DNA of 64,000 bases from Sipunculus nudus. Lineage: Eukaryota > Annelida > Sipuncula > Golfingiida > Sipunculidae. The notes under the pieces were generated by a model that did no database searches, was not told the DNA's origin, and worked only from the letters and a program-made list of their open reading frames with translations. The stretch covers positions 22,429,019 to 22,493,018 of the forward strand of contig CM049306.1 of the NCBI GenBank assembly GCA_026874595.1, given 5' to 3'. Made by a program: the position numbers and the translations under genes. Below, in pieces: positions 28,501 to 31,500 of this stretch. Within the stretch, counting starts at the first letter, position 1. Each line of letters starts with the position of its first letter.

Positions 28501-31500
28501 GTCCATGGCTGCCAGCTAAATACAGAAGCAAGATAAAAAAGTTCAGCTTATCATTAATAAGCAGTCCAGATATCTGACAAATTGCAAATTAACAAACCCC
28601 CTCTGGTACATTATGAAGTGCCTGGATAAAACCATTTTATTCTAGGACACAATCCAGTGAAGGCAGCATTGATTTAATTAGTTCTGAAACCCAATAACAG
28701 AAAGATTATAGACCAAAATCTTAAAATGCAAGGTAACTAAATTTTCTGCTTTACTCCTGTCATTATCTTCTGAAGACAGTTTTTTTTCTTTTACAGGGAG
28801 ACATTTTTATCTGTGACACTCTAGGTATGATGAATCCCTGAATATAAAACACAAGTTTGCTTGTTGTTGCTGAGGCACAGATTTTACCTCGATTCACTTT
28901 AAGCAATTTATCATGAATTTCACACTTAAGCTGTCAAACACATACCTTTAAGAAAAGTGACTAAAAGCTTAGGTGCTAAAATTATTGATTTGTACTGAGT
29001 TGGTGAAAAAAAATCAGATTACATGTGCTTGAATTGAAACAAACCTTTGGAGGCAGTCCAAGTCGATGAAATTTTCTCCCCAGCTCAGGAAATCTTTCTG
29101 CTATGTCTTTCTTTGTTTTTGACTTAGCTCTGTCGATGGCACTGTAGTTGAACGTTTCACTGGCTAATTTAACAACCTACAATAAGCAAGCAAGGATACA
29201 TATTAAAATGCAATATACCTCATATCAGCCTAAATTCTAAATTAATGTGAATTTATATTCATTAAAAAAATGATTTTTTCCCAACATTTATTCTGTAAAA
29301 TTTGTGAAATCATTTACACTTAAATTATTAGTTGATTAAGTTAAATATTTTACCAAAGTCAATATTTGTTTATATTTAGAAGCAATTTATCCTGAGACCA
29401 CAACTTAGATATTTTTTTTTATTAGCACTTGAATTTTATCTCTTTTGTTAAAACCAATCATGATATGTCATATTAATGACATGATATTATGGACCAGAGG
29501 ATCTGGCCTGTCTAACTAGGTTGCAGAAAACCTCTCTGTGCAGTGAAGACCTTGCATTTAATAGGCCAACTCTGTCAGTTCTTTGACCATCCTGATAACA
29601 GTTTAATTGCATTTATTAAAGGATTTTAATTACTTCTAATAATAATGAATTCAGTCACAGATCCTCCAATTAAACTTTCATTGATCCTTGTGATATAAAA
29701 TGTAAATCAGTCTGTTCAACATGCTAAGTCAAGGCAACCTCTGTTCTTGTGACCAGCATGCATGTAATGCTGGTAGTATGGAGGTCCCATATACAACATA
29801 TGCAAACTGAATGGATAAATGTCAATGTAGGTCAACAGTAATTATACATTAACCTCCATGCACTCAATTTTTATTTAAAATATGCAGTAATATAAATAAA
29901 TGAGGGTTCCTGTTTTATTTTTTATTAGAGTGTGACAAATGTTAAAGATCATTAAATAAACATCCCAGAAAATATTGTTCCAAAATAAAACGCATTATTA
30001 CATAAAATTGATGAACAACATCTTTTTTATTTAAAAATTCTTGTCTGTAGTAGTGGGCATCCCTCTCTCACCATAAACAATGGTAGAACAGTCTATGATC
30101 CTTCAGTCTTTGAGTGTCCAAGGTGACTCAGTAGTTCCACTCTTTTATTCACAGTAAAGGCCTATAACAGACTTATGTTTGTTCTCAGTACAATATTAAG
30201 TTGTAGTTTCTGATCCACTAGACTGGCTCCTGACATACCTTTTGTTCTCGGTACAATATTCAGTTGTAGTTTCTGATCCACTAGACTGGCTCCTGACTTA
30301 CCTTTGTTCTCGGTACAATATTAAGTTGTAGTTTCTGATCCACTAGACTGGCTCCTGACTTACCTTTGTTCTCGGTACATTATTAAGCTGTAGTTTCTGA
30401 TCCACTAGACTGGCTCCTGACTTACCTTTGTTCTCGGAACAATATTAAGTTGTAGTTTCTGATCCACTAGACTGGCTCCTGACTTACCTTTGTTCTCGGT
30501 ACAATATTAAGTTGTAGTTTCTGATCCACTAGACTGGCTCCTGCCTCTGATAAGTAGCCTTGGTTCGGAACGAGACAGCCTCGACCAAAACAGCATGGAC
30601 AACAGATCTTATGCATAAATTTGGTCCATTTGGGGTTGAGGTGGCCATAGGGTTCCTCATCTTTTGGTTTAAATACGGCTATTTTTTTCTGAAAAGAAAG
30701 AAACACAAACATTTTACCATCATTTTTATCAAATTTAATGTAGAGTTTTTTCTAGTGTAATGGTTTAGTAGAAAATTCATCATTAGGTGTAGAGTCTAAG
30801 ATTTGAACCCCACAAATGATTCAAAGGTAAAACAATGAAATTATGATAGAACTCAAAGATCTCCTCCTAAGTAACCATAGGTTATGTATTCTGGATTATT
30901 CCTAGTACTATATATATATTAAACCTGAAATCAAGAAAACTCAATATTAACATGTCATTATTAATAGTGAACCCTCTACTAATCCACTGCACTAGAAATT
31001 AGGCTTAACCCTATTTCTTCTAGCTTGACTAAGGTTTCTAAAACATACACATTCCTTTTCCTAATAGTCAATAAGTCAACCTTAAAACCTGTTTCTTTAA
31101 ATAACTTTGTCACATGAATTTTCCTTGGATAAACAATCCCTCATACCAACATCCTGGTCATCTGAAGCAGGAGCTTTGAGATCCCACTTCATCTGTAACC
31201 CTGCCTCTTGGTGATCTGTGTATGTATAGTCATGATTATAAATGAAACTCTCATTTATCACTGTCAAACATAGATTGACAGCCTTGATATGTGAGGCTGC
31301 AGAAGTCATCAATCATCAGATAAATACTGTGCTCAGAATCACACGAGGATGCTGGAAGTGTCTTTTTTCCCAAGACGCAATTTCAGGTAAAAATATTACA
31401 TATTTGCCTGTAGTTAGGCCATCTGTTCAAGACATTCTATAGGATTCATGTATTTTTACACAAAGTTCAAAATACTTCATACTTTATGATAAAATAATAA

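Follow-up and report, generated by a model that had tools for sequence, protein, structure and literature searches.

The window, which is the whole stretch of 64,000 nucleotides of the Sipunculus nudus assembly that was analysed, carries a PI4K2 gene on its minus strand. The peptide encoded by exons 2 to 4 matched human PI4K type 2-alpha (PI4K2A, PDB 4hnd) with an E value of 2e-77 and 160 of 160 residues aligned. No further PI4K2 place was found in the 1.43-Gb assembly, where a missing match elsewhere is no proof. The parts of the gene, in the order of transcription, are as follows.

50605, minus strand: end of exon 1, before GTGAGT
30689 to 50604, minus strand: intron 1, 19,916 bp
30488 to 30688, minus strand: exon 2, 201 bp, placed by homology to 4hnd; the final 55 bp belong to array copy 1 as its exon part
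29177 to 30487, minus strand: intron 2, 1311 bp, containing array copies 2 to 6
29045 to 29176, minus strand: exon 3, into which the protein continues directly from donor 1
26496 to 26649, minus strand: exon 4
21490 to 21554, minus strand: exon 5, borders placed by eye using homology and GT/AG
5771 to 5870, minus strand: exon 6, borders set by eye
4992, minus strand: start of exon 7

Other repeats were also seen in the window. At 8 to 879 and 2789 to 4455, TRF found two long arrays of one 69-bp unit, and between the two stands a 338-bp array. The C-rich repeat CGGACAATTACCCCC, of 15 bp, lies at 36868 to 37071, and about 560 bp further on, at 37634 to 37789, there is a repeat close to its reverse complement.

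At the end of exon 2, TRF reported a minus-strand tandem array at 30170 to 30543 with a period of 62, 6.0 copies, 95% matches, 0% indels as rounded and a score of 683, which is far beyond chance expectation. Reading the array unit by unit gave the following copies.

30170 to 30543, minus strand: whole minisatellite, six copies of a 62-bp unit made of the end of exon 2, the donor and the first bases of intron 2 (TRF and unit listing)
30481 to 30542, minus strand: copy 1, the real exon end and donor AAG/GTAAGT, G at 30487, U1 duplex -10.6 kcal/mol
30419 to 30480, minus strand: copy 2, GTAAGT intact, G at 30425, one substitution relative to copy 1
30357 to 30418, minus strand: copy 3, GTAAGT intact, G at 30363, two substitutions relative to copy 1
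30295 to 30356, minus strand: copy 4, GTAAGT intact, G at 30301, exactly equal to copy 1
30232 to 30294, minus strand: copy 5, GTATGT, G at 30238, two substitutions and one inserted A, U1 duplex -6.8 kcal/mol
30170 to 30231, minus strand: copy 6, GT destroyed (CATAAGT), three substitutions, U1 duplex -2.5 kcal/mol
30467 to 30469, minus strand: stop codon reached after V-S-Q-E-P-V in all transcripts spliced past donor 1; it starts 18 nt into the intron

Copy 1 reads AGGAGCC...ACAAAG and then GTAAGTC, and copies 2 to 6 follow head to tail within intron 2. Copies 1 to 4 are each 62 bp long, copy 5 is 63 bp and copy 6 closes the array. The exon part of the unit measures 55 bp, or 56 bp with the shared preceding C, which corrects the figure of about 58 bp given in an earlier note on this DNA. 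AAAGGT is present in all units except the last. The first four donors have equal duplex energy with the 5' end of U1 (-10.6 kcal/mol), and the best other donor of the gene, that of exon 5, reaches -10.7. Two claims of the earlier note were borne out here: TRF and the unit listing both gave six near-identical units that repeat the exon end with its donor, and four GTAAGT and one GTATGT indeed stand in a row at 30487, 30425, 30363, 30301 and 30238.

The alignment with 4hnd ran without a gap from IVPRTK, at the end of exon 2 at donor 1, into VVKLASE at the start of exon 3, and by this homology the protein shows no added segment at the join. The later donors would add 62, 124, 186 or 249 nt to the transcript, and each reads V-S-Q-E-P-V and then the stop, just as the earlier note had claimed for any donor other than that at 30487. 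Since the match to human PI4K2A passes directly from exon 2 into exon 3 and every later donor reads into a stop, the conserved protein must come from donor 1 (30487).

The genome was scanned for three exact donor 9-mers in a row, using AAGGTAAGT with gaps of 38-68 and with gaps of 8-38, and CAGGTAAGT and CAGGTGAGT, both with gaps of 38-68. Grouping the rows by hand gave at least 48 donor arrays including that of PI4K2, i.e., at least 47 others, with later chromosomes under-represented among the matches listed. The upstream side was fetched for all 47, and in 44 of them the array starts inside the fetched stretch; one array (L025) has 25 donor-equivalent copies in the fetched 1.8 kb. The 35 arrays with an open frame of at least 20 residues ending at the first donor-equivalent site were scanned with Pfam. 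The remaining 12 were kept in the denominator; three of them (L017, L058 and L063) fill the fetched stretch upstream, and nine had no 20-residue frame. A donor earlier than the one picked by the script was chosen for L027, L038 and L052, and a frame other than the longest was used for L029. A Pfam domain above the curated cut-off was found in the open frame ending at the first donor in 9 of the 47 listed other arrays.

L025: PHAF1, the match reaching to three residues or fewer from the donor
L030: 3HCDH_N, likewise to three residues or fewer
L039: Thioredoxin, likewise to three residues or fewer
L046: B56 of PP2A, likewise to three residues or fewer
L047: Peptidase_M1, likewise to three residues or fewer
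L051: Tfb2 of TFIIH, likewise to three residues or fewer
L027: TPR_12, one of three matches that stop 28-44 residues before the donor, from where the open frame alone continues
L037: Importin_rep_3, the second of these three
L041: FAM220, the third of these three

Matches to solved structures were obtained for B56 (E 1.1e-13) and for p52 of TFIIH (E 5.6e-10). No Pfam match above the cut-off was found for L021. DNA-PKcs was considered as the gene at L038 and reached only E 0.13, and was left out of the count. With nine other arrays having Pfam-backed exon ends, the PI4K2 array is therefore one member of a class in this genome.

The scans were compared with reversed patterns. Triples of AAGGTAAGT with gaps of 38-68 occurred at 212 places against 210 for the reversed pattern, which is no excess. 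The corresponding figures were 420 against 111 for CAGGTAAGT and 415 against 120 for CAGGTGAGT, both with gaps of 38-68, and 252 against 43 for AAGGTAAGT with gaps of 8-38; these totals are not counts of arrays, because places overlap within arrays. As single motifs, AAGGTAAGT occurred 16,304 times (22,042 reversed) and CAGGTGAGT 11,050 times (6,480 reversed).

Single-motif controls were taken from contig C1, 20 sites of AAGGTAAGT and 20 of CAGGTGAGT. Twenty-seven of the 40 were scanned, the other 13 having a frame shorter than 20 residues, and one of the 40 had a Pfam domain above the cut-off (THEG, at L115). The comparison of 9 of the 47 arrays listed with 1 of 40 single sites gave a Fisher P of 0.018, and a P of 0.035 when FAM220 is left out, a match that depends on a longer upstream stretch than was available for the controls. 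The singles all lie within the first 6 Mb of C1 and had some 400 bp apiece, and the arrays had 250-1,800 bp upstream. The singles were not chosen blind: close pairs or clusters and the array-region site 1041072 were passed over in the CAGGTGAGT list, as was the single at 5633904, which resembles a real exon end beside the acceptor array L067 and would have been favourable to the singles if kept. The comparison suggests that arrays are preferentially born at real exon ends, and we do not lean on the test because the sampling region, the length, a dispersed repeat and the unblinded choice all differ between the two sets.

The dispersed repeat is a family on C1 (L084, L085, L087, L088, L092, L093, L095 and L098-L101) whose members end like CAGACTCAAGGTAAGT, spreading a donor-like motif genome-wide, and by eye 11 of the 20 AAGGTAAGT singles belong to it. 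At another place on this contig (L117, C1:3403719-3404127), a tandem repeat lies directly before a tyrosine-kinase-like exon, with PK_Tyr_Ser-Thr at E 0.0051, below the cut-off.

The acceptor side was scanned with TTTTNCAG three times, and the matches listed cover part of contig C1. Our own grouping gave at least 27 acceptor places in that part, of which 20 were fetched and examined. Pfam was run on 10 of the 20, in frames beginning at the last acceptor, and 3 of the 20 had a domain above the cut-off.

L069 (C1): Na_Ca_ex (Na/Ca exchanger), match from residue 2 after the last acceptor
L079 (C1): TPR_DOCK (DOCK), match from residue 1 after the last acceptor
L083 (C1): Lectin_C (C-type lectin), match from residue 19 after the last acceptor

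Four more places (L066, L067, L080 and L082) resemble exon starts by eye, without Pfam support. The triple pattern of TTTTNCAG itself showed no excess, with 2607 places against 3278 for the reversed pattern. Pfam-backed acceptor arrays occur alongside the donor arrays, and hence both exon borders can be multiplied into arrays. A known protein runs up to the exon-side copy, i.e., the first donor or the last acceptor, in PI4K2, L025, L030, L039, L046, L047, L051, L069 and L079; correct continuation into the neighbouring exon was checked in PI4K2 alone. An asymmetry between donors and acceptors was considered as a way to learn in which order the sites are used; nothing followed from it, since arrays of either kind exist and the two were not sampled comparably.

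Some contigs of the same assembly are bacterial. COX1-family matches of 577-578 residues with near-equal scores were found on C60, C61, C62, C66, C72, C74, C75 and C89 (two on C89). The assembly has 11 COX1-family places, and the two that were read, L124 on C60 and L127 on C123, were both bacterial; C123 carries a cbb3-type oxidase cluster at L127, and no tRNA was found on the second of the two places. The bacterial contigs may represent associated bacteria or contamination.

We consider it probable that the PI4K2 array is a near-neutral minisatellite overlapping an exon end, with donor 1 used and the later donors mostly ignored. A tandem duplication across the boundary of exon 2 and intron 2 would have given rise to the minisatellite. 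In it copy 1 is still the real exon end, and copies 2 to 6 are spare exon ends within the intron, of which four have kept a donor that could be used. Since both flanking introns are long (19,916 and 1,311 bp), exon 2 is probably recognised by exon definition, and the donor nearest the exon's own acceptor would win. Published work reports this preference for exon definition, where flanking introns are longer than about 250 nt, and in five minigenes carrying a pair of identical CAG/guaagu donors, with introns of 365 nt, the upstream donor was used exclusively (PMC9225289). With copies so nearly alike, an advantage of donor 1 can hardly come from local sequence, but it can come from position. Donor 1 would thus be used and the later donors mostly ignored, a reading drawn from the protein match and from what has been measured in human genes and minigenes. 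The array would be close to neutral and would turn over like the other minisatellites of this genome.

Under intron definition the same source finds the opposite donor preference, and a shortened intron 2 should accordingly switch which donor is chosen. Transcriptome-wide, near-equal 5' competitions went to the upstream site in 60% of cases with all architectures pooled (PMC9225289), and because this rule is a preference, some leakage to later donors is likely. For human acceptors under exon definition, a merely weakened upstream bias was reported (PMC9225289), and the acceptor arrays therefore fit the proximity rule less well.

Were the later donors of use, one would expect their 9-mers to be more conserved than the remainder of the unit. 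Across copies 2 to 6, the donor 9-mers were changed at 3 of 45 sites and the rest of the unit at 5 of 265 (Fisher P = 0.095), and in this small test the later donors showed no sign of upkeep and, if anything, decay. Four of the five later units keep the GT, which neutrality permits and does not require. The mean divergence of the array is 2.6%, a figure in which turnover within the array confounds an estimate of age.

The reading frame was followed in 22 exon-anchored arrays, 10 anchored by homology (including PI4K2) and 12 by eye; the arrays other than PI4K2 had been selected for intact donors, and copy 5 was omitted from the later donors of PI4K2. The first later intact donor led to a stop or a frameshift in 20 of the 22, including 9 of the 10 homology-backed arrays, and in-frame read-through was seen in L039 and L018 alone. 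Were misuse of the later donors common and harmful, arrays with harmless misuse should be left over, and no such excess was found among the 22. Since 20 of 22 lies near a rough chance estimate of about 1/8 harmless cases (a third of cases in frame, multiplied by the probability that about 20 codons contain no stop), destructive read-through was in this small test generic to such arrays. In L018 (C3:69508519) the second donor, if used, would extend the exon by 57 nt, in frame and free of stops, and an array of this type could lengthen a protein.

The earlier note had gone beyond the anatomy and read the array as a possible copy-number rheostat, in which the later donors compete with donor 1, transcripts that use them meet a stop and decay, and productive PI4K2 mRNA therefore depends on unit number. 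The donors of copies 2 to 4 are as strong towards U1 as donor 1 (-10.6 kcal/mol) and lie in nearly identical local sequence, all leading to a stop, and the length of an intronic repeat can alter splicing, as reported for ABCA7 (PMC5954066); however, the later donors show no extra conservation, minigenes with identical donors use the upstream one (PMC9225289), and the boundary-spanning repeats of lancelets, called mirages, apparently give no aberrant mRNA (PMC3087553, PMC3902484). The structure also recurs, and because it is found in unrelated genes of the same genome, the repeated exon end is not a device of this kinase. The earlier note was right on the anatomy, on the donors and on the stop that follows VSQEPV, but its tuning of splicing or decay by copy number was left unsupported by the evidence from recurrence, conservation, frame, mirages and minigenes, and we regard it as improbable. 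A broader version, with mirage-type arrays forming a genome-wide layer of splice-site competition in which leakage grows with unit number and feeds nonsense-mediated decay, so that PI4K2 dosage would vary between individuals, appears to us a long shot.

Two further explanations were weighed. AAAG/GTAAGT could act as a combined acceptor and donor, with the copies removed stepwise or forming a new intron; the unit contains AGGT, and when phased on the donor it becomes a 62-nt GT-AG unit, GTAAGT...AACAAAG. Intron gain by a boundary-crossing duplication has been described in potato (PMC4974935) and proposed for lancelet mirages (PMC3087553). Judged from pyrimidine content alone, the AACAAAG sites of copies 2 to 4 have no clear tract, with 8-10 pyrimidines and 5-7 T in 20 positions, whereas the six real acceptors of PI4K2 have 10-17 pyrimidines and 7-15 T in 20, ranges that touch. 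Stepwise removal would moreover yield the same mRNA and is hence unneeded, and we hold such recursive splicing or intron birth to be very unlikely. Misassembly, which could have produced the unit number or the whole array, has a possible precedent in a draft genome in which the assembly of one mirage seems to be aberrant (PMC3087553). A simple assembly error is disfavoured because the array is merely 374 bp long inside a 110.9-Mb contig and its units differ by scattered substitutions and one insertion, and we give this explanation hardly any credence.

The single case of PI4K2 is by itself ordinary. The wider interest lies in the fact that several genes in this one assembly carry near-identical donors or acceptors in series at a true exon border. 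These are natural counterparts of the minigene experiments on how splice sites are chosen, and the number of sites ranges from three to over 20. A gene, they further suggest, can survive a tandem duplication across a splice site, a point of relevance for how such variants are read in patients.

Among known systems, the published minigenes (PMC9225289) resemble the PI4K2 array in that a single acceptor is followed by a series of strong, identical donors and the flanking introns are long. They differ in having two donors, in transfected cells, whereas PI4K2 has five natural GT donors and L025 has 25 copies. In ABCA7, the length of an intronic VNTR correlates with skipping of exon 19 (PMC5954066); like the PI4K2 array, it is an intronic minisatellite in a gene whose splicing is at issue, but the abstract of that paper does not mention donor copies within the repeat. 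In recently duplicated human genes, tandem repeats at exon boundaries are reported to create novel introns and alternative transcripts (PMC2812944). These cases would count against the neutral reading, as they indicate that boundary repeats can alter transcripts. Intron gain by tandem duplication of AGGT likewise involves a duplicated segment that crosses the boundary and contains AGGT; however, the extra copies in PI4K2 sit in an existing intron and probably make no new intron in coding sequence.

The closest likeness is to the lancelet mirages, tandem repeats spanning an exon-intron boundary that have been described in the Adh3, troponin C and globin genes (PMC3087553, PMC3902484) and in PGBD5 (PMC3902484). 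They are reported at 5' or 3' borders, many with AG/GT signals, and one lancelet gene has 6 and 3 units in its two haplotypes, while splicing is apparently left undisturbed (PMC3087553, PMC3902484). The gene in question is another one, and the 1.43-Gb assembly is larger than lancelet genomes, which points to a lineage that is probably not Branchiostoma. In both animals the tandem units cross the exon-intron boundary and carry the parent splice signals, which in PI4K2 are four GTAAGT, one GTATGT and one lost. Both show the structure in several unrelated genes and at 5' and 3' boundaries, with at least nine donor-side and at least three acceptor-side arrays having Pfam support here. The unit of 62 bp in PI4K2 compares with lancelet units of 10-160 bp. 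The PI4K2 array is a mirage-type structure, of a kind already published in lancelets.
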